From: an uncultured Methylococcales bacterium
GTDB taxonomy: Bacteria > Pseudomonadota > Gammaproteobacteria > Methylococcales > Methylomonadaceae
DNA length: 55,210 bases
Direction of reading: 5' to 3'
Assembly: GCA_913019935.1 (NCBI GenBank)
Contig: CAJVZC010000006.1
Coordinates: 1 to 55,210 of the forward strand
The notes beneath the pieces are model-generated. The model was not told the DNA's origin. It saw only the letters and a program-made list of their open reading frames with translations, and did no database searches. Positions 18,131 through 28,135 of this stretch are shown piece after piece. The translations under genes and the position numbers were made by a program. Position 1 is the first letter of the stretch; every line of letters starts with the position of its first letter.

Positions 18131-18766
18131 TCAATCAGAACCCGTCACCCGGCTCGCCAAAACTTGATCAATCAACCCAAACTTAACCGCATCAGGCCCA
18201 CTCAAAAAATTATCTCTATCCGTGTCTTTCTGAATTTTCTTCATCGATTGCCCCGTATGATCCGCCATAATCCGGTTAAGTCGCTCTCGAACCAAAATAA
18301 TTTCTTTCGCATGAATATCAATATCTGAAGCCTGTCCCTGAAAGCCACCTAAGGGCTGGTGTATCATCATCCTTGAGTTCGGCAAACAATAACGTTTGCC
18401 TTTTGCGCCACCCGTGAGCAACAAAGCCCCCATACTCGCCGCTTGCCCAATACACATCGTCGAGACATCCGGCTTAATAAACTGCATGGTGTCATAAATA
18501 GCCAATCCAGCAGATACAGAGCCACCCGGAGAATTTATATATAAGTGTATATCTTTATCTGGATTCTCTGATTCCAAAAAAAGCAACTGAGCAACAATCA
18601 AATTGGCCATATGATCTTCAACTTGCCCAACCATGAAAATAACACGCTCTTTTAAAAGCCGTGAATAAATATCATAAGAACGTTCACCTCGAGCCGTTTG
18701 CTCGATAACCATAGGTACCAAACCACTACTCGTTAATTCAGCAACGCTTTCTTTAAAATCAGCCAT
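18131..18766 (-). CDS. clpP: ATP-dependent Clp protease proteolytic subunit ClpP
   Basis: Self-compartmentalised serine protease that works with ClpX. The catalytic Ser is in [11 protein letters not shown], the His in MMIHQPLGG, and the Asp of the triad follows in the [16 protein letters not shown] region. [10 protein letters not shown] forms the oxyanion/strand region. Its 211 residues match the family. The ATG overlaps the trigger factor stop in the 8-bp sequence ATGGCTGA, suggesting translational coupling with tig. Confidence 0.97.
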
Positions 18767-20084
18767 TTACAACCCCTGAATTCTGTGGCGTCATTAATTC
18801 ATCAAATGCAACATTCTCTTCAACCACGGTATTATGCGTAACGATCCAATCAATCACCTGCTCTTCAAGAATCATTCTCTCGACATCAGCCAAGCGTTTT
18901 TTATCTGCATAATACCAATTTACCACATCCTCTGGTTTCTCATAAGTATTAGCCATCACTTCAATTTCTTGCCGCACTCTTGCGGCATCCACTTGAATTT
19001 CATTTTTTTGGATAATCTCAGATAACAGCAATCCTAATGCAACCCGGCGCTTCGCTTGTTCTTCAAACATCTCACGCGGCAAGTCGCTATCTGAAATAGC
19101 CTGTTTTTGACGCTTAGCATTTTCTTTATAAGGCTGTTTAAGTGCCTCTATCTCCTGATCCACCAAGACATCAGGAAGCGTCATAGGGAATTTATCAAAC
19201 AATGAATCCATAACCTGATTCTTAAGATGTCGTTTAATTGCCTGGCCTAATTCAATTTCTAAATTAGCCTTCACCTCACCCTTAAATGAATCAACATCAC
19301 CGGCCGTACTGCCAAAAGACTTGATGAATTCTTCATTAACTACCGGTAAGCTCACTTCTTCAACCAACACAACTTCAACGTCAAATGTGGCTGTTTTACC
19401 GGCTAAATCAGCATTCCCATACTCTTCAGGAAAGGCACTATCAAACACCTTCTGTTCACCCGCACTAAGGCCGAGCAACTCATCTTCAAACCCTGGAATC
19501 ATTTGATTCGACCCCAATTCCAATTGATAATTCTCTACCTTGCCATCAGTGAAATTTTTATCATCACAAACACCCGAAAAATGAAAGGTTAAACGATCCG
19601 TCTCTTGACCACTACGCTCTACGGCATTCCATTCTTTCTTGTTGAGCTGTAACGTTTCAATGGTTTTTTCAATATTCTCTTCCTGCACACTACAAACAGG
19701 CTGTTTAACTTCAATTTGATCGATACCGGCTAAGTCGACTTCCGGTAAGACTTCAAAATTTGCAACATACTCAAACCCATCATCATTGCCTTGATCCTCA
19801 CTCGGCACAATATGGGGTGCACCTGCTGGTTTCAAGCCTTCACTTTGCAATGCTTCATAATAAGAAGATTCAATTAACGCACTAATCACTTCGCCTCTGG
19901 CACGCTCACCAAACATTTTCTTAACGACATGAAAGGGTACCTTACCAGGTCTGAAACCATCTAACTTAACGTCTTTAGCCAATGTCTTCAGTCGAGTCTC
20001 AGCCTTTTCTTGGATGCTTTCTTCCAAAACACGAACAGTCATTTTTCTGCTCAAATCAGAAACTTTCTCAACAGAAACTTGCAT
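18759..20084 (-). CDS. tig: Trigger factor (ribosome-associated chaperone)
   Basis: Binds ribosomal protein L23 at the exit tunnel and shields nascent chains. The ribosome-binding signature [18 protein letters not shown] lies near residue 45, followed by the FKBP-type PPIase domain (about 150-245) and the helical C-terminal chaperone arms. It has 441 residues, the usual size. The start at 20084 is supported by GAGGT with correct spacing. First protein gene of the tig-clpP-clpX block and preceded by tRNA-Leu. Confidence 0.96.
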
Positions 20085-20369: not shown

Positions 20370-21269
20370 ATGAAAACATTGCTTTCTGCGCTAACTCCAC
20401 TCGCCATACTAACCCTAGCAATTATTATCGCGGGTGTCTTAGGGTATTTTATATTTCTCGCTATTGACGGGGCAGTTCCTTTGCGCAAACTCATCAGTAA
20501 AACAGCCTTGGTACTACTTCTACTCAGCATATTCCCTTTAATGCATTTTCTTAAACTATCTAAGGTCGACTTAGGTATTGCACCCAAAAAAAAATTTGCA
20601 CGCCAAATAATAGCCGGGCTAGTCCTCGGTATCGTAATCCTAGCGCCTCTCTTTCTTACTTTTTACTCTCTTGATATTTGGGTTATTGATCACAACTTTC
20701 AGTTCACAGCAACCATAATACTGGCTAAACTATTTAAAATACTGCTCATTTCATTCCTTATTTCCATCCCAGAAGAGATGCTTTTCCGAGGCATTCTTTT
20801 GACTAGCCTAACGCGTGCCAAAGGGGTGCTATTTGCCATTTCCCTCAGCGCTTTTTATTACGCAGGCCTCCATTTCCTTAAAAGTAAAACAGAAATCCCT
20901 CCTGACGAAGCCAGTCTATCCAGTAGCTATTACTTAATAGCCGACGCTTTAACTCAACTGACCAACCCTGGAAACCTACCTGCCTTTATTGCTCTCATGT
21001 CTGTAGGTATCTTTCTTGCCACCATACGAACAAAATCACCCATGAGCCTTGGGGTATGTATTGGGATCCATGCCGGCTGGGTCTTTCTAATCAAAACAAA
21101 TTCAGCATTTCTAAATCGAAATCCTAGTTCTGATTGGTATTTCTTGGTCAGTAATTATGACGGCGTTATCGGTCCTTTAGTCACCGTTTGGCTAACACTC
21201 ATTACCGCGACATTTATAACCTATACCTACCTACGAGACAAATCGACTAATAGCTCACTTGAACCTTAA
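20370..21269 (+). CDS. CPBP-family intramembrane metalloprotease
   Basis: A multi-pass inner-membrane protein of the Rce1/CPBP (Abi) family. The three family motifs are visible: EEMLFR (EExxxR) at about residue 132, FYYAGLHF with a conserved His at about 167, and GIHAGW with the second conserved His near 232. These would bind the catalytic metal. It has about eight hydrophobic segments in 299 residues. No Shine-Dalgarno is evident. Its 3' end overlaps the radical SAM gene by 23 bp tail to tail. Members process prenylated proteins or bacteriocins or have no known substrate; nothing here identifies one. Confidence 0.82.
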   Translation: MKTLLSALTPLAILTLAIIIAGVLGYFIFLAIDGAVPLRKLISKTALVLLLLSIFPLMHFLKLSKVDLGIAPKKKFARQIIAGLVLGIVILAPLFLTFYSLDIWVIDHNFQFTATIILAKLFKILLISFLISIPEEMLFRGILLTSLTRAKGVLFAISLSAFYYAGLHFLKSKTEIPPDEASLSSSYYLIADALTQLTNPGNLPAFIALMSVGIFLATIRTKSPMSLGVCIGIHAGWVFLIKTNSAFLNRNPSSDWYFLVSNYDGVIGPLVTVWLTLITATFITYTYLRDKSTNSSLEP

Positions 21270-22089
21270 AGCCGATCCTTCTGATACTATCTGCCGCCCG
21301 GTCCAATAGGTAGCCTGGCACAGGGGCAATAACCCGCGCTTCCGGCTGCAAAGATGGTCGCGCTAAAGTATATAAATAAACGCCTTGGATCTTTGCTTGG
21401 GTCCGAATCTGCTGCAAAAACAATTGGTATGCCCTAACTTCACCATCAAAACTTATCTTTCCTGGATAATCAAATAAACAGGTTTGCAGCCAAAGTTCAC
21501 ACACCTCGCTCGTCACTTTAATATTTTCCATAATGCGTTCTATCGGCATCATCGTACTATTGATTAACTCCCGCCCAGTGGCCGTTGCACTATCTAACTT
21601 AAACCATACTTGCCCACCCAATGCTCCCCATAGCGCCAAACCACGCCTAACGGAATCTCGATGCAATAAGCTACCATTAGTAATTAACACTAACTTGATC
21701 TGGCCCAACTTAGACCTACGCTCCAAAACCTCCTTAATCACCTCAATAGCCTCACTAAAACTGGCTAAGCTCGTCGGCTCACCATTCCCGGAGATAGAAA
21801 TATCCTTAATATCTCGACAATTAGGATCAACAGAAAAGTCACTGTAAAAACGTCCTGAATCAATATACGCCAGAAAAAAATACAGCTCTTCTCGTAATTT
21901 CAACAAATCAATATCCGGTGCACTGCCAACAGACAACTCAGGCACTTGGCAATAAACACAACGCCAATTACAGGCATTATTAACATTAAAATTAATCCCT
22001 ACAGAAATCCCGCCTGCTCGCCTCGACAAAACGGGATAAATATAAGTCAATCCTGCCACATCACGGCTGTGATCTTGAGTCGTTAACAT
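21247..22089 (-). CDS. Radical SAM protein of unknown function
   Basis: The [4Fe-4S] cluster motif CxxxCxxC is present as CNWRCVYC near residue 40, followed by SISGNGEPTS-type glycine-rich SAM-binding sequence (DISISGNGEPTS) and LVLITNGSLL. The fold region resembles the wyosine-type/COG0731 branch of radical SAM enzymes, but the reaction is unknown. The ATG at 22089 (MLTTQDHSRD) is preferred from my memory of homologues; starts at 22098 and 22113 are also in frame. It is divergent from the Fae-like gene and next to the fhc cluster, which suggests, without proof, a role in C1 or cofactor metabolism such as methanofuran/pterin modification. Confidence 0.8.
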   Translation of the reverse strand: MLTTQDHSRDVAGLTYIYPVLSRRAGGISVGINFNVNNACNWRCVYCQVPELSVGSAPDIDLLKLREELYFFLAYIDSGRFYSDFSVDPNCRDIKDISISGNGEPTSLASFSEAIEVIKEVLERRSKLGQIKLVLITNGSLLHRDSVRRGLALWGALGGQVWFKLDSATATGRELINSTMMPIERIMENIKVTSEVCELWLQTCLFDYPGKISFDGEVRAYQLFLQQIRTQAKIQGVYLYTLARPSLQPEARVIAPVPGYLLDRAADSIRRIGFKVQVSY

Positions 22090-22193
22090 TGCTGCCATAA
22101 AGCAAATAAACATAACCTACAAATATGCTATTCTAGTCGCTTACACTACTAATCATAAGTATTTTTTTAACCACCTTCTTTTGGAGAAACACC

Positions 22194-22748
22194 ATGAGTG
22201 AAAGAATTGTAATGCGGACCGGTGAATCCTTAGTCGCTGGCGGTCCTCCCGGAACAGCAGCAGAACCCGAAATAATTATTGGTGAACTAGACGGTCCTGT
22301 TGGCACTGCTCTAGCAACCTTAACGGGCGACCAAGTCAAAGGCCACTCACGCGTTTTTGCTATTTTAAATACCGACATACAAGTTCGCCCTGTCACCTTA
22401 ATGGTGAGCAAAGTCACTGTTAAAGATAATCGCTATACTAATATTTTAATGGGCACGGTCCAAGCCGCTATTGCAAATGGTGTTTTGGATGCTGTTAGAG
22501 CCGGTGACATTCCTAAGGAAAAAGCAAACGATCTAGGTATTATCGTTTCTGTATGGCTTAACCCTAGCGTTGCCACAGATGAGAATCTCGACCACCAAAT
22601 TCTTTTCGATATTCATCGTAAAGCAACAGCCCAAGCCATTCATAAAGCCATGAACCACCAACCGAGTATTGACTGGCTTTTGGAGAATCAAGAAAATATC
22701 ACCCACAAATATTTTCAAATGGGGCTAGACGGTAAAATCAAACCTTAA
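22194..22748 (+). CDS. Formaldehyde-activating enzyme (Fae) family protein lacking the catalytic histidine
   Basis: True Fae condenses formaldehyde with tetrahydromethanopterin. This 184-residue protein aligns along the whole family: a GESLV opening, EIIIG strand, the RPVTLMVSKVTVKD segment matching the KPNTLMFNKVTIND type of Methylobacterium Fae, and a DAVRAGDIP helix. At the position of the catalytic His (His17 of M. extorquens Fae, from memory) this protein has Glu24 (TAAEPEIIIG). It also has a longer Gly/Pro-rich loop before that. It is therefore a paralogue (Fae2/Fae3-like) and probably not a standard Fae. GGAG lies 8 nt before the ATG. It may bind the pterin or act as a sensor; this is speculation. 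Confidence 0.85.
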   Translation: MSERIVMRTGESLVAGGPPGTAAEPEIIIGELDGPVGTALATLTGDQVKGHSRVFAILNTDIQVRPVTLMVSKVTVKDNRYTNILMGTVQAAIANGVLDAVRAGDIPKEKANDLGIIVSVWLNPSVATDENLDHQILFDIHRKATAQAIHKAMNHQPSIDWLLENQENITHKYFQMGLDGKIKP

Positions 22749-22897: not shown

Positions 22898-23494
22898 ATG
22901 GTGAACCGAAAACCCACGCTTAGCTTTCTTGCTTCTCACGGCGGCTCTGCTGCAAAAGCAATTATTCACGCGATAAAAAACCATCAACTCAATGCTAACA
23001 TTGGGGTTGTTATTACCAATAATGAGAATTCTGCCATTTCTCAGTGGTGCCTAGAAAACACGATAAAAATAATTCACATCAGCGCATTAACCCATCCAAA
23101 TAGCGACCAAGAGGATAAAGCCATTAAAGACGCCCTCTCTGTCGCCGGAACAGATTACGTGATTTTATCTGGCTACATGAAGCATATAAAACAACAAACA
23201 TTAGCTAAGTTCTCAAACAAGATATTGAATGTCCACCCGGCGTTACTGCCAAAACACGGCGGCCAAGGCATGTATGGTGACCGCGTACATCAAGCGGTTC
23301 TTAATGCCAAAGAAACAATTAGTGGCGCCAGTATTCACTTTATCAATGAGGTCTATGATGACGGCCCCGTCATTGCCCAACAAGAAGTCCCCGTGTATCC
23401 CAATGATACTGTCGACACGCTACGCCAACGTGTACAAGCTATCGAGCCATTGCTTTATATTAAATCAATCGCCAAAATACTAGACACCCACTAA
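22898..23494 (+). CDS. PurN-like formyltransferase (phosphoribosylglycinamide formyltransferase family)
   Basis: Formyl_trans_N fold, 198 residues. The catalytic triad of 10-formyl-THF-dependent formyltransferases is present: Asn111 and His113 in LNVHPALLPKHGG, and Asp154 in YDDGPVI. The KHGGQGMYG loop is typical of a PurN branch common in Bacteroidetes rather than the E. coli form. The phosphate loop is SHGGSAAKA, where E. coli PurN has GNGSNL, so an Asn that contacts the substrate is Ala here. It may be the organism's PurN or a relative with another formyl acceptor. It converges with fhcC, with 6 bp between stops, and follows the Fae-like gene on the same strand. Confidence 0.75.
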   Translation: MVNRKPTLSFLASHGGSAAKAIIHAIKNHQLNANIGVVITNNENSAISQWCLENTIKIIHISALTHPNSDQEDKAIKDALSVAGTDYVILSGYMKHIKQQTLAKFSNKILNVHPALLPKHGGQGMYGDRVHQAVLNAKETISGASIHFINEVYDDGPVIAQQEVPVYPNDTVDTLRQRVQAIEPLLYIKSIAKILDTH

Positions 23495-23500
23495 AATGAT

Positions 23501-24322
23501 CTAGGCATTACCCACCCGAACCAGAATCTCGCCCCGACCAATCCCTGCTATATCGCCACCATATCTATGCACACGATTAAAGTGTTGAGAGGAATCTGAA
23601 AACTTAGAATCAAATTGCGCCATTGCCTTAAACAACATCGGTAAGAATGAAAATGTATGGGTTCCACAATCACCAAATGTAACCGGAACCTTAGGTTGCT
23701 GCCACAACAACAATGTGCCACGACGCATACCATAGCCAATATTTCGTCCCGTCTCACCCATAACCGCGATAGTTCCCGCCGTCATTCTAGCGCCACAATA
23801 ATCGCCAGTACCGCCTTCAATCAAAATCATCCCGCGTCGCATATGATCTCCCACACGATCACCTGCACTCCCTTTAATAAGGACGGTACCACCCTGGATA
23901 CCTTTTTTATTACCCGGTAAAGCAGCGCCGAGGAAGTCATCGACATCACCCATAACCTGTAAAAATCCATTTTTCATTTGGCAAGCCGCATATATCCCAA
24001 CATTACCCGATACCGTTATTTCCCCCGCTCGCATATCCATTGCTAAATAAGCACCCACATCACCGGTTACCCGAATACTGCCACCGTCTAATCCATGACC
24101 GATATAATCTAATTTAGAAAAACTATTATTAATGTGTATCTTCTCAACATCTGACCCTGAAATTGAAAACAACTCATCAACACGCAATTTTCTTTTACCA
24201 TTCTGCAACTCAATAGCCGCAATTTCAGCCAACTCTAATCCTGCCAACTTATCACAGGTTATAGGCGACATATCAACACGCTGATTAGGCCTATACTTCA
24301 TTGTCAACGTCAAATCAGTCAT
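23501..24322 (-). CDS. fhcC: Formyltransferase/hydrolase complex subunit C (FhcC)
   Basis: Structural subunit homologous to FwdC/FmdC of archaeal formylmethanofuran dehydrogenase and to the C-terminal domain of glutamate synthase. The protein is a right-handed beta-helix of repeated G-x-x-G-x-x-x-G turns, visible from about residue 75 to 215 (for example GDVGAYLAMDMRAG, GSAGDRVGDHMRRG, GETGRNIGYGMRRG). It has 273 residues, as expected for FhcC. The start overlaps the fhcD stop by 8 bp (ATGACTGA), so translation is coupled. Last gene of fhcBADC. Confidence 0.94.
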   Translation of the reverse strand: MTDLTLTMKYRPNQRVDMSPITCDKLAGLELAEIAAIELQNGKRKLRVDELFSISGSDVEKIHINNSFSKLDYIGHGLDGGSIRVTGDVGAYLAMDMRAGEITVSGNVGIYAACQMKNGFLQVMGDVDDFLGAALPGNKKGIQGGTVLIKGSAGDRVGDHMRRGMILIEGGTGDYCGARMTAGTIAVMGETGRNIGYGMRRGTLLLWQQPKVPVTFGDCGTHTFSFLPMLFKAMAQFDSKFSDSSQHFNRVHRYGGDIAGIGRGEILVRVGNA

Positions 24323-25214
24323 TCATAATCTCCTGTAAATGAAAATGATAGGGCCCTAATTTCCCGCCATAATTACCGGCACTGATGCGTTTAACACCAT
24401 TATAAGCACCAATCGAACAAAAGGTCTCCATGCCTATTTTCATCGCCTTTTTTATATCAGTCTCGGTCAAACCATCAATAACAATCTCCATGACCGATTC
24501 AATTTCTGGAGACAATTCAGATTTCGTAATCCCTTTTAACGTTGGACAAAAAGCGTCATTAGTCGAGGCGGTCAAAGCCGGATACTTTGACCCAACTTTA
24601 GAACCCGAACGCACCACCCCCCCTGGGAAAGGCAAGATAACATTAGGTACTTTGCGCATTTCAAGAACAGCCTTTTCACATGCCTCTAATGCATCTACTT
24701 CAGACTCCGCCAGAATAAGTAAATTACCGCCGCCAATAGCATTCACCTGCCCCGTTGTTTCTTCAACTAAAAACTCACCATCCATCACAGGAATTCGCCA
24801 ATAACGATTATCATTAATCACTTTGGAGGTCTGAAAACCATCACCAAAATAACGCAAATTCTTGCCTAAGGGAATTCGGATACCGCCATCGATACCTGAA
24901 AACAAAGCAGAGGTCGGAGAGGTTAAAACACTTTGCCCCGCCCTCGTTTCAAGCTGTTTTACTAATGATTTAGCACCCATAGTAAACAACATGGCAGAAA
25001 CGCCTGGACGCCCATCCGGTGTCTCTGAAGGCTTCAAGTAACGCTCAATATCTGCCTCACACCCACAGCCAATGACTGACGTCGCAAACCCTGTCATTGA
25101 TTTAGCCGCATTAAAAGCCCACTGCTCCGTTTGTGCCGTAATAATGACACGTGTAGCCTTCATCGGAAATGCTTCTGCGAAAGTATGATCGATCAAGACA
25201 CCATTAATGATCAT
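24315..25214 (-). CDS. fhcD: Formylmethanofuran:tetrahydromethanopterin formyltransferase (FhcD/Ftr)
   Basis: Moves the formyl group between H4MPT and the methanofuran-type carrier. It has 299 residues, matching archaeal Ftr. The N-terminal MIINGVLIDHTFAEAFPMK and the internal segments GCGCEADIE, DGGIRIPLGKNLRYFGDGFQ (quoted as DGGIRIPLG and RYFGDGFQ) and GGNLLILAE are characteristic. The ATG overlaps the fhcA stop by 4 bp (ATGA). With FhcA, B and C it forms a complex that yields formate in the H4MPT-linked formaldehyde oxidation route of methylotrophs. Confidence 0.95.
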   Translation of the reverse strand: MIINGVLIDHTFAEAFPMKATRVIITAQTEQWAFNAAKSMTGFATSVIGCGCEADIERYLKPSETPDGRPGVSAMLFTMGAKSLVKQLETRAGQSVLTSPTSALFSGIDGGIRIPLGKNLRYFGDGFQTSKVINDNRYWRIPVMDGEFLVEETTGQVNAIGGGNLLILAESEVDALEACEKAVLEMRKVPNVILPFPGGVVRSGSKVGSKYPALTASTNDAFCPTLKGITKSELSPEIESVMEIVIDGLTETDIKKAMKIGMETFCSIGAYNGVKRISAGNYGGKLGPYHFHLQEIMND

Positions 25215-26875
25215 AAAACACCTCTCTGGGTTGGCTGAACAGTCAATGTGTTTCGCCCGTCTTCAGTTATTTCATCGTTACTGATTTTGAAGTTCCCCAT
25301 CTTCATGGTCATATGGCGACTAAAATATTTCGCCAAATCCTTTTCAATACCGCGATCAAATTCAGGCGTAACAATATGTGTTGTACCCCATTTAATATGA
25401 ACAATTTCACCGTCTCTTACTACTAATTCACCATCTTTAAACACATAATCAGGCTTTTCGAACATCTTTTCTCGGTTATCATCCGGTGTATATACCGTAA
25501 TATCAGCCCAAGCCCCTACACCCAAATGTCCTCGGTTTTCCAAACCCACTAACTTTGCCGCCCCTGCGCGCGTCATAATTGCAATCTCTTGCAATGAATA
25601 CTCTCTGTCAATAGTATCTAACGTTGTCATTTTCTGCGCTTCAGGATGAATCGTTTTCAACATATCGTTGCGAAAACTTCTATCCATCAGTAACCGGATC
25701 AAATGCGGGTAAGAGGTAAAAGGAGCCCCATTAGGATGATCTGTTGTCAAAAAGATGCGCCAAGGATCTTCAACCAAAAGAAAGGTTTCTAAACCAATCG
25801 CCCACTGTAAGGCATTAACAAAATTCTGATCCCGATACTTGAAAGGAACCAAGCCACAACCTGCATCACATTCTATATCCATACAAACCCACTTATTAGG
25901 ACTTGCATGTTTATGGTTAGCATGTTGTTTCATGCTATCCCCAGATGCCGTAACCGTTTGCCCGAACATCACCTGCCCCACATCAACGGTAATATTCTTA
26001 TTCTTATTAATTGCTTCGGCAATTTCAGCGGCGCCCGAAGAAAATTTGAAATCACCTTCAACCCCATAACTGTGAAACTGTATATGGGTTAAATGCATCG
26101 GCAAGCCACCAATACCCTCTATGGTTGACAGCGTGGTATCTTTATTGCCTGGCACGCCCAGGTTACACCCATGAACATGCAATGGATGTGAAATACCCAG
26201 CTCTTTAACTGCTGTCGCCAAAACACTAAGAATATCTCTAGGGGTCACATTGTAAAACTGATTATTTTCATCCAGATCAAGTTGACGTTGATTAAATTTG
26301 AAGGCATTAATACCGCCTGGATTAACAACTTTTACACCAATACCTTTTGTCGCATTAAGCGTCCATGCCACATAATCGTTGATTGCTTGCTGATCCTTTT
26401 TAGCCGTCATCATTTGCAAGAAATAATCATCGCTTCCCATTAAGACATAGCCGCCTTTATCTAAAATAGGAATATCACCCATTTCCATATGTGCTTGACG
26501 AGCATTAACCGGCAATACTGCCGGTTCAAAAACTGAGGTATACCCCATTTCAGCATATCGATAACCGGTCACATAAGAAGAAGGTAAAGCACGCCCCGTT
26601 CCTGATCGCGTTAATTCTGTAGCTGCAACCGGATCAGAACGATGATCTTCTGGTAACAAAATTCTAGCAATATTATTTTTTCCGCCACCGACATGGGTAT
26701 GCATATCTATAGCACCCGCCATCACTATTTTGCCTCGCAGATCAATTTCCTGATCAACCTGAGTTACTTCTTGCTTAGATACAATACGGTCATTTTTAAT
26801 GTAAATATCTAGCGCTTTGCCATTAACATTATTGGCAGGGTCGTAAACCACCCCACCGGTAAGTTTTATTATCAT
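25211..26875 (-). CDS. fhcA: Formyltransferase/hydrolase complex subunit A (FhcA), metal-dependent amidohydrolase
   Basis: Homologue of FwdA/FmdA; an amidohydrolase-superfamily enzyme that hydrolyses N-formylmethanofuran to formate. It has 554 residues. The first metal ligands are in DMHTHVGGGKN (HxH), the carbamylated-Lys region in VKVVNPGGINAFKF, and further His residues in HPLHVHGCNLG and LTHIQFHSYG; an Asp ligand sits in FLTTDHPNGAPF. It lies 3 bp downstream of fhcB and overlaps fhcD by 4 bp. In bacterial Fhc this is the only catalytic step besides the FhcD transfer, since subunit B has lost its redox site. Confidence 0.95.
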   Translation of the reverse strand: MIIKLTGGVVYDPANNVNGKALDIYIKNDRIVSKQEVTQVDQEIDLRGKIVMAGAIDMHTHVGGGKNNIARILLPEDHRSDPVAATELTRSGTGRALPSSYVTGYRYAEMGYTSVFEPAVLPVNARQAHMEMGDIPILDKGGYVLMGSDDYFLQMMTAKKDQQAINDYVAWTLNATKGIGVKVVNPGGINAFKFNQRQLDLDENNQFYNVTPRDILSVLATAVKELGISHPLHVHGCNLGVPGNKDTTLSTIEGIGGLPMHLTHIQFHSYGVEGDFKFSSGAAEIAEAINKNKNITVDVGQVMFGQTVTASGDSMKQHANHKHASPNKWVCMDIECDAGCGLVPFKYRDQNFVNALQWAIGLETFLLVEDPWRIFLTTDHPNGAPFTSYPHLIRLLMDRSFRNDMLKTIHPEAQKMTTLDTIDREYSLQEIAIMTRAGAAKLVGLENRGHLGVGAWADITVYTPDDNREKMFEKPDYVFKDGELVVRDGEIVHIKWGTTHIVTPEFDRGIEKDLAKYFSRHMTMKMGNFKISNDEITEDGRNTLTVQPTQRGVL

Positions 26876-26878
26876 TTT

Positions 26879-28135
26879 TTACTGTGCCTGATCAATTAAC
26901 GTCAATACTTGTGCTGTTGAAGGCAGCCCTGACTCCCTTAACTTTTGCAATCGAATAGCAACAACACCATCCATTCGGAAGGCATGGCCACAATGATCGA
27001 TTCCCGGTGTACCCACTGGAATGAATACCGCTGGTTCTTTTTCAAAACGCATCCCAGAACGACCAATCACAATCGTTGGAACAACACCCTCGGGGGGTAA
27101 TGCTTTACTATTAAAGTCATGCACCCATAACAATGCATCAACCTCTTTATTCTCCAACAATAACTGCCCATCATAAAGATAAGGATCGTACTCTGGGAAA
27201 CCTCTTGCAAAAGACAATCGAGCTGGATAACCGGTCAACCAAGCCGTTACTTGATTCGCGGTTTGATCACCATCACTGCCCCCTAGCGGCAAGCCAGAGC
27301 AGCGCGTTTTTTCATTAAGATCTTTCACCAATTCACAAATAACCTGCACCGTCAATTCTGCATGTGGGAAATCCAATGAACCTGCTGACCAAGTCACTAC
27401 ACCATAAGCGGCTTCTTTTAACTGCTCAGCCAACGCCTGTAAGTCAGTTAATGCTAAACCGTCCACTTCATAGTGGGAAATATTATTACCTTTTACTAAA
27501 GCCCTTAAAACGGCCACTACTTCTGGCAAATCCTCATCCGCACAAGGCAATACTTGAGGCCTAACACCCACCGGTGACACCGCAGATTGGCCGGAAGGTT
27601 CTTTACCCAAATAAACCACTTGGCATTGCGTACTCGCCTCTAAAAACATGGGCGATTCATTCCAGATGAAATGCTCAAAAAAACGCGGTGAAACTTTTTC
27701 TATATCAGTACCAATAACCACCAACAGATCACAACGATTTTTAACCTCAGCCAGCGTTGTCGTCATCCAACCCGAATCTTGTAAGGCCAAAATATTACGG
27801 CGTGTTGTATTAAATGCCACATTATCGACAACTGCACCGTTATGATCCGCCAGAGCAACCAAGGCGCGCATACCATTTACGTCCGTTGCACAACCCCCGA
27901 TTAAAGTCTGATCCGAAGCCTTAAGAATATCTGCTGCTTGTGCGACAGCGACCTCAAGTGCAACCTCTTCCCCGTTGACCCTAGGAACCATATCTCCAAT
28001 GGCCTGCTCAAATGCCGGTGTATTAATAGCACAACCATTGGCCAGCACATTAATAGACTTTCCATCTACATTAAGCACTAGGTCATCTGTTCCGATACCG
28101 CAAAAAGGGCTAGGAACCTCAGTTTTTGTCGTCAT
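26879..28135 (-). CDS. fhcB: Formyltransferase/hydrolase complex subunit B (FhcB), redox-inactive FwdB homologue
   Basis: Homologue of the molybdenum/tungsten subunit of archaeal formylmethanofuran dehydrogenase; 418 residues. In the archaeal protein a CxxCxxxC cluster binds [4Fe-4S]. Here the same place reads SPFCGIGT (Ser9, Cys12, Thr16), so two of three Cys are gone. The Cys that ligates W/Mo (in a DNTATVC-type sequence) is replaced: DNVAFNT, Thr110. This fits the known bacterial Fhc enzyme, which transfers and hydrolyses but does not oxidise. First gene of the operon; AGGA precedes the ATG. A separate formate dehydrogenase must therefore oxidise formate. Confidence 0.93.
   Translation of the reverse strand: MTTKTEVPSPFCGIGTDDLVLNVDGKSINVLANGCAINTPAFEQAIGDMVPRVNGEEVALEVAVAQAADILKASDQTLIGGCATDVNGMRALVALADHNGAVVDNVAFNTTRRNILALQDSGWMTTTLAEVKNRCDLLVVIGTDIEKVSPRFFEHFIWNESPMFLEASTQCQVVYLGKEPSGQSAVSPVGVRPQVLPCADEDLPEVVAVLRALVKGNNISHYEVDGLALTDLQALAEQLKEAAYGVVTWSAGSLDFPHAELTVQVICELVKDLNEKTRCSGLPLGGSDGDQTANQVTAWLTGYPARLSFARGFPEYDPYLYDGQLLLENKEVDALLWVHDFNSKALPPEGVVPTIVIGRSGMRFEKEPAVFIPVGTPGIDHCGHAFRMDGVVAIRLQKLRESGLPSTAQVLTLIDQAQ

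Follow-up and report, generated by a model that had tools for sequence, protein, structure and literature searches.

A 55,210-nucleotide stretch of DNA from an uncultured Methylococcales bacterium (GenBank assembly GCA_913019935.1, contig CAJVZC010000006.1, positions 1 to 55,210), referred to here as the window, encodes a radical S-adenosylmethionine (SAM) protein on its minus strand, next to a divergent gene resembling that of the formaldehyde-activating enzyme (Fae). A sequence-only reading had described this gene as an orphan with intact CNWRCVYC and GNGEPTS motifs and a reaction that could not be named, and had proposed that its pairing with the Fae-like gene may be functional. Here we present an analysis of the conservation, distribution, surroundings and predicted structure of the radical SAM protein. 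The gene and its motifs are listed below; residue numbering starts at the ATG at 22089.

21247..22098, minus strand: radical SAM protein gene, 283 amino acids plus stop, with alternative ATGs at 22089 and 22113
21949..21972, minus strand: CNWRCVYC, the [4Fe-4S]/SAM cluster motif, residues 40-47
21772..21789, minus strand: GNGEPT, the SAM-binding (GGE-like) motif, residues 101-106
22018..22026, minus strand: SRR box, residues 22-24, in 113/113 members and in 4/6 aligned distant relatives
21592..21606, minus strand: WFKLD, residues 162-166, with W162, K164 and D166 in 113/113 members; K164 ends a predicted strand
21478..21501, minus strand: the branch-specific extra cysteines C197 (113/113) and C204 (111/113), with Q202 (113/113)

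The first in-frame ATG of the open reading frame (ORF) lies at 22113, from which the ORF spans 21247-22113 on the minus strand. The boundary originally given, 22089, is a genuine in-frame ATG; however, the ATG at 22098 is the likelier start, because in an alignment of four congeners it is the only one common to all, apart from a TTG further upstream.

Both motifs were borne out at residues 40-47 and 101-106 and are conserved in the family, whose members are about 280 amino acids long. The three cluster cysteines, W42, Y46, Q48, G103 and E104 are identical in all 113 members aligned, and N102 is found in 112. The remaining invariant positions include S22 R23 R24, N138, S140, N177, Y240 and R244, besides the cluster positions C40, C44 and C47. 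Because these residues are conserved across 113 sequences, the cluster and GNGEPT motifs are not chance occurrences. By the chemistry of the superfamily, the reduced cluster would cleave SAM to give a 5'-deoxyadenosyl radical, which would in turn abstract a hydrogen atom from the substrate. K164, D166 and the C197/C204 pair may lie in or near the active site, where their role would likely be catalytic or structural.

Distribution and descent of the family

As to function the protein remains an orphan within the reach of these searches, but it has abundant relatives. In a sample of 61 genomes of the order, including the window's own, the gene was found in 53; it is missing from five genomes of one family (f7), two of another (f8) and a single further genome (G036). 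Outside those two families, 53 of the 54 sampled genomes carry it. Among the matches listed, the closest named relatives are Methylococcales ETNP20_MAG_37 (93% identity) and Methylococcaceae UWMA-0325 (92%). Orthologues of 47-52% identity were listed from Nitrosomonas europaea, N. oligotropha, N. mobilis, Thiobacillus, Sulfuriferula, Sulfurimicrobium and a Gallionellaceae genome, and most other methanotroph genera among the listed matches fall in the same range. The hosts are relatives of bacteria that oxidise methane, ammonia, sulfur or iron. A broad contig scan, of which the best 80 of at least 575 relatives (among at least 594 stretches) were kept, was supplemented by draws of genomes from the window's class (profile threshold E 1e-30) and phylum (E 1e-10). 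The gene occurs in 16/369 genomes of the class draw and 74/398 of the phylum draw; 68 of the latter are outside the window's class, comprising 64 from family f212, three from f232 and a fragment in f245.

In a tree of 113 sequences, the 16 rows from outside the gammaproteobacteria form a single starred group, and the rows of methanotrophs lie almost together. The methanotroph grouping required four label changes, compared with 38 on average after shuffling; this label was assigned manually to 58 rows by their record titles, eight of them titled merely Gammaproteobacteria or proteobacterium, and one of these eight (L068) groups with family f74. The window's genus sits on a long stem branch (1.23) in the same tree, whose bootstrap had not settled. 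A housekeeping enzyme acting alone fits these data, since the gene is nearly universal in the order outside the two families and the tree follows broad groups.

The family is thus widespread in the order and among Nitrosomonas and the sulfur- and iron-oxidising relatives, yet only a superfamily model matches it. The window protein scored 33.7 bits against Pfam Radical_SAM (cut-off 29.5), the only model above its cut-off, and 37/37 members of a family alignment matched that model at E up to 0.01. In NCBIfam no model reached its cut-off with the window protein, the weak matches including viperin, MoaA and a tungsten-cofactor maturase, among others. The statement that the reaction is unassigned was upheld. 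No characterised radical SAM subfamily was found to fit, so the observation that would have refuted the earlier reading, a clear place in a characterised subfamily unrelated to C1 (one-carbon) metabolism, did not arise. A literature search returned no paper joining radical SAM, formaldehyde-activating enzyme and methanotroph, no paper joining COG0731 with radical SAM, and, among the entries listed, nothing on this family; the one paper to combine radical SAM, methanotroph and Methylococcales was a cobalamin review. Most subscription papers lie outside such a search, which leaves absence unproven in each case.

The Fae-like neighbour

The genes around the radical SAM gene are the following.

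22099..22193: intergenic stretch of 95 bases between the radical SAM gene and the divergent Fae-like gene
22194..22748, plus strand: Fae-like paralogue, Pfam 198 bits, NCBIfam fae model 118.7 against a cut-off of 118.05
22898..23494, plus strand: PurN-like formyltransferase, flanked by the Fae-like gene and fhcC, from Pfam and NCBIfam searches
23501..28135, minus strand: fhcC, fhcD, fhcA and fhcB, encoding formylmethanofuran dehydrogenase subunits C, A and B and the formyltransferase, transcribed towards the radical SAM gene
20370..21269, plus strand: CPBP/Rce1-like membrane protease gene, convergent, sharing 23 terminal bases with the radical SAM ORF
18759..20084, minus strand: trigger factor gene, with clpP, clpX and lon next, identified by eye

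The neighbour is a real Fae homologue, as had been supposed. With a convergent ORF at its 3' end and the divergent Fae-like gene at its 5' end, the radical SAM gene presumably forms its own transcription unit in the window; a scan for promoter- and terminator-like sites placed none of its sites inside 22099..22193.

The idea that the pairing is functional was followed by a survey of both genes across genomes. Within the order, 17 of the 43 genomes holding both genes, in three families, have them adjacent and divergent. Fae was searched for in 50 of the 60 other genomes of the order, and found in 43, of which 42 also carry the radical SAM gene; the seven without Fae lack both. With the window genome added, 51 genomes could be scored for both genes: 43 have both, seven neither and one Fae alone, an association inflated by shared ancestry. 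The class draw gave a similar picture, with Fae in 10/16 carriers of the radical SAM gene versus 39/353 non-carriers, again inflated by shared ancestry; Fisher's test gave p 3e-6 by genome, with kinship ignored, and about 0.002 by family, a figure that uses an estimated family total. Seven of these ten carriers with Fae belong outside the window's order.

The phylum draw, by contrast, offered no sign of co-inheritance. There, 73/74 carriers are without Fae, the exception being the window's own genome, and 21 of the 22 genomes with Fae are without the radical SAM gene, so that Fae occurs in 21/324 non-carriers. Even in the class draw, 39/49 genomes bearing Fae lack the radical SAM gene. (In each draw, the radical SAM and Fae searches were taken to concern the same genomes by matching sizes and genome labels.) Among 40 further carriers, apparently outside the order, 31 have no Fae and nine do, two of the nine being one genome; in none of the nine is Fae adjacent, lying on other contigs or at least 64 kb from the radical SAM gene, which for one record (L112) was judged by the length of the contig. 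All examined genomes of Nitrosomonas (11), Thiobacillus (2), Sulfuriferula (1), Sulfurimicrobium (1) and Gallionellaceae (1) have the gene and no Fae. Since carriers without Fae and Fae genomes without the gene are both common, Fae is neither required by nor sufficient for the radical SAM gene, and the Fae neighbour is a lineage feature of methanotroph relatives. Something common, by descent or by habit, nevertheless correlates with both genes in the gammaproteobacteria. Very probably, the enzyme does not depend on the Fae-like gene as an obligate partner, and their link in the methanotroph order is one of position.

These counts bear on a reading in which the enzyme would modify a pterin or cofactor of the tetrahydromethanopterin/methanofuran pathway, working with the Fae-like protein in gammaproteobacterial C1 bacteria. 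The recurrent pair in the order and the enrichment of Fae among class-draw carriers are what such a role would produce, and fhcC precedes the gene on the same strand, at a distance of 9-238 bases, in eight of 113 loci in which neighbours within 400 bases were counted (Fae, fhcC, trigger factor, queD and bioA). Against it, the two genes part company almost completely in the phylum draw, orthologues that keep the invariant residues are found in the Fae-less Nitrosomonas, Thiobacillus and Gallionellaceae genomes, and the genes are not adjacent in the seven genomes of families f74, f127 and f141 that bear Fae. Fae itself was within 400 bases in 13/113 loci, a label requiring six changes on the tree. 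The pair is present in the record of Methylotuvimicrobium buryatense strain 5G (L055). We judge this role improbable; the pairing does recur in the order and in class-draw co-occurrence, but a C1 role as the function of the family is unsupported, and the case cautions against deducing such a role from a Fae neighbour.

The methanopterin context had been suggested alongside that of wyosine bases, and one precedent for it, an example of our own choosing, has been withdrawn. According to a passage of PMC9433317, MJ0619, once proposed as a methanopterin pterin methylase, was wrongly annotated: that proposal was uncorroborated, and the enzyme forms the biphytanyl chains of archaeal lipids (GDGT-MAS). 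MJ0619 resembles the window protein in being a radical SAM enzyme and in its once-proposed methanopterin connection; it differs in its lipid role, and its structure (7tom) reached only Z 14.1 in the list of the structure comparison described below. The reassignment leaves the proposed pterin methylation without that enzyme. Our radical SAM protein is a poor candidate for the vacated step, because 39/49 Fae genomes in the class draw and 21/22 in the phylum draw lack the gene.

Some observations concern the Fae-like protein itself. The histidine of the AHID motif of Fae is catalytic. In the paralogue at 22194-22748, Glu stands where the solved Fae (PDB 1y5y) has this histidine, which the genome's other Fae (contig C21) keeps, and all 13 Fae-like genes adjoining the radical SAM gene read GTAAEPE at this position. 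Instead of condensing formaldehyde, the paralogue may bind it or act as a sensor of it. A Fae homologue of Methylomicrobium alcaliphilum 20ZR, Fae2, is reported in a passage of PMC6277846 to rise 14-fold with lanthanum; Fae2 may or may not correspond to the paralogue beside the radical SAM gene, and the term radical SAM is absent from the main text of that paper. One genome of family f141 (G319) has two Fae genes and no radical SAM match at E 1e-30, whereas a congener (G207) has both, and a natural loss of the radical SAM gene in G319 is possible. Finally, the PurN-like formyltransferase (22898-23494) scored 144.9 bits, slightly below the NCBIfam PurN cut-off of 150.1.

Likeness to known radical SAM enzymes

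The AlphaFold2 model of the protein had a pLDDT (predicted local distance difference test) of 90.1 and a pTM (predicted template modelling score) of 0.88. Among the matches listed, all 50 from each structure search (Foldseek and VIA-align 2) were radical SAM enzymes by title. VIA-align 2 ranked the PFL-activating enzyme (Z 18.5, root-mean-square deviation 3.1, 225 residues aligned) and RlmN (Z 18.1, 3.5, 248) in a tie at the top, with TYW1 (2yx0; Z 16.8, 3.6, 243 aligned) and NifB (Z 16.5) below them. The top Foldseek match was a radical SAM methyltransferase, followed by lipoyl synthase and RlmN. Comparison of the predicted model thus settles a radical SAM fold and leaves the reaction undecided.

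The first place of the PFL-activating enzyme points to protein modification, with the protein as a glycyl-radical-enzyme activase or a peptide maturase. That rank is tied with RlmN, however, and no recurrent peptide or target gene was found beside the radical SAM gene across lineages among ORFs of at least 70 amino acids. The named hosts, moreover, mostly respire oxygen. We give this reading a low probability.

Similarly, viperin was the commonest weak NCBIfam match, found for 36/37 members, and PADLOC gave a match of 26.7 bits, which might suggest an antiviral enzyme. The NCBIfam score is 26.2 bits, however, against a cut-off of 180, the distant relatives described below match viperin equally weakly or somewhat better, and presence throughout the order among housekeeping neighbours is unlike a defence gene. 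A viperin-like role is hardly credible. For MoaA the window protein reached 20.2 of the 284 bits required, and for TYW1 no NCBIfam match was listed at E up to 1, the best among the 37 members having E 0.00028. Identity with viperin, MoaA or TYW1 by sequence was rejected, all three lying far below their cut-offs. No QueE model appeared among the window protein's NCBIfam matches at E up to 1, and RlmN gave it no NCBIfam match. Solved structures searched by sequence, with the window protein and the family alignments, yielded nothing under E 0.001.

Distant kin were found by other routes. With the N. europaea protein as query, five plasmid records were recovered, from Phocaeicola, Collinsella, Bacteroides, Parabacteroides and Peptoclostridium, at 26-28% identity over 94-95% of the length and a best E of 2e-9; the window protein as query gave no plasmid match at E 0.001. 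The five also appear in the set of ten recovered with a hand-typed COG0731-like consensus. A profile comparison (hhalign) of the 37 members with four of these ten, the SRR-box proteins from Peptoclostridium, Collinsella, Parabacteroides and Fusobacterium, gave a probability of 99.7 and E 4.6e-26 over residues 14-280, reaching the end of the protein; with two rows lacking the SRR box added (L161 and L162), E was 7e-27. These four relatives resemble the window family in having PVxSRRxGxSxG ahead of the cluster, CxxxCxxC, GEPT, N138 and Arg in the position of R244, and those of Collinsella and Parabacteroides additionally keep K164 and D166. Unlike the window family, they have no W162/F163, C197, C204 or ARPSxQPE, and the stretch before GxGEPT is shorter. 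From these alignments we take the window family to be a proteobacterial branch of a broad family of short SRR-box radical SAM proteins, with a signature of its own in W162, C197, C204 and ARPSxQPE. The broad family is presumably COG0731, which also holds TYW1.

The wyosine context previously suggested thus retains something, in the form of a distant kinship to the side of the wyosine synthases. The top NCBIfam match of the Peptoclostridium relative is TYW1 (55 bits against a cut-off of 318), and TYW1/Taw1 shares with the window protein the fold, as well as a sub-threshold sequence match in 7/37 members; its structural rank near the window protein is held by many other families too. As described in a passage of PMC5352715, TYW1 carries a second [4Fe-4S] cluster on three further cysteines. 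Because the window family conserves only C197 and C204 besides the motif, this second site is absent. Cysteine in residues 2-39 is found in 6/113 members and not in the window protein. Membership in TYW1, whose NCBIfam cut-off is likewise not reached, was rejected. The pyruvate-binding lysine of TYW1 is K41 in the M. jannaschii structure, according to a passage of PMC7761594; lysine in residues 2-39 is found in 40/113 members and not in the window protein, and the invariant K164 may or may not correspond to K41. RlmN is alike in fold, with the alignment extending over model residues 1-280, and differs in that its sequence model leaves the window protein unmatched.

Other neighbours and the candidate substrate

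The remaining neighbours vary from lineage to lineage. Trigger factor lies 252-313 bases downstream of the radical SAM gene in 16/113 loci; in the window the CPBP/Rce1-like protease gene separates the two. In 13/113 loci, of a Nitrosomonadaceae type, queD is divergent and adjacent, representing one change on the tree. bioA adjoins the gene on the same strand in 7/113 loci (f212 and f232), with overlapping ORFs in five, and an aspartate kinase gene lies on the same strand 45-626 bases away in five loci. No neighbouring gene family, wherever it lies in the stretches, is found in more than 25/113 loci, the figure for the most frequent one, and none is common to all lineages. The neighbours of the radical SAM gene do not make up one pathway.

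QueE resembles the window protein in being a radical SAM enzyme, and the adjoining queD prompted the idea that our protein replaces it. This was rejected: canonical QueE is a separate gene, above its cut-off in 36/40 genomes, the exceptions being G000 (incomplete), G002 (a fragment), G012 and G044. Replacement of QueG was rejected likewise, QueG being above its cut-off in 35/38 genomes (exceptions N. europaea, G070, and G064 and G305). The QueE set includes five genomes without the radical SAM gene and one genome twice; the QueG set includes ten without it.

The same neighbours raise the possibility of a small-molecule substrate, such as a cofactor, a vitamin or a pterin/deazapurine-type precursor, belonging to a pathway that these bacteria share. 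The divergent queD in the Nitrosomonadaceae-type loci, with a single PTPS-family gene in 8/8 genomes searched, is consistent with this, as are the adjoining bioA genes and the neutral isoelectric point (pI) of the family (median 6.6, range 5.0-10.1, window protein 7.6). Each neighbour is limited to one lineage, however, and the protein is not a missing QueE or QueG. We regard a small molecule as possible, though unlikely.

The reading we prefer, at a probability of roughly 0.4, is that the protein is a stand-alone radical SAM enzyme acting on an RNA base or a nucleotide, Fae being a local neighbour. A base or nucleotide fits best because the gene travels alone, is kept across the order and encodes a fold near those of TYW1 and RlmN. 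The substrate is the least certain step; naming a nucleotide or RNA base, with tRNA as the leading candidate, is a guess that we put forward tentatively. Several points weigh against the preferred reading. The association of the gene with Fae in the order and in the class draw is one, and the structural ranks are scattered over RNA, protein, lipoyl and nucleotide enzymes. In addition, neither charge nor domains favour an RNA substrate, since the pI is neutral and Pfam found no RNA-binding domain in family members.

Were the substrate identified, a chemistry that several lithotrophic guilds have in common could be named. A more specific conjecture, which we hold to be doubtful, is that the family alters an RNA base, nucleotide or cofactor by a radical reaction not yet described and typical of the methane-, ammonia-, sulfur- and iron-oxidising proteobacteria, and that in gammaproteobacterial C1 bacteria the gene was drawn into the Fae/Fhc locus and co-regulated with it.

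Two minor observations concern the queuosine genes. N. europaea and its close relative G064 have QueD and QueE and no QueG above the cut-off, and two other Nitrosomonas tested differ from them. In one genome of the window's own family, a divergent QueD lies beside a QueE-like gene (G012:C2:728707-729796) that scored 98.5 bits against the gammaproteobacterial cut-off of 300; the two form a different queDE pair, seen in this one genome.

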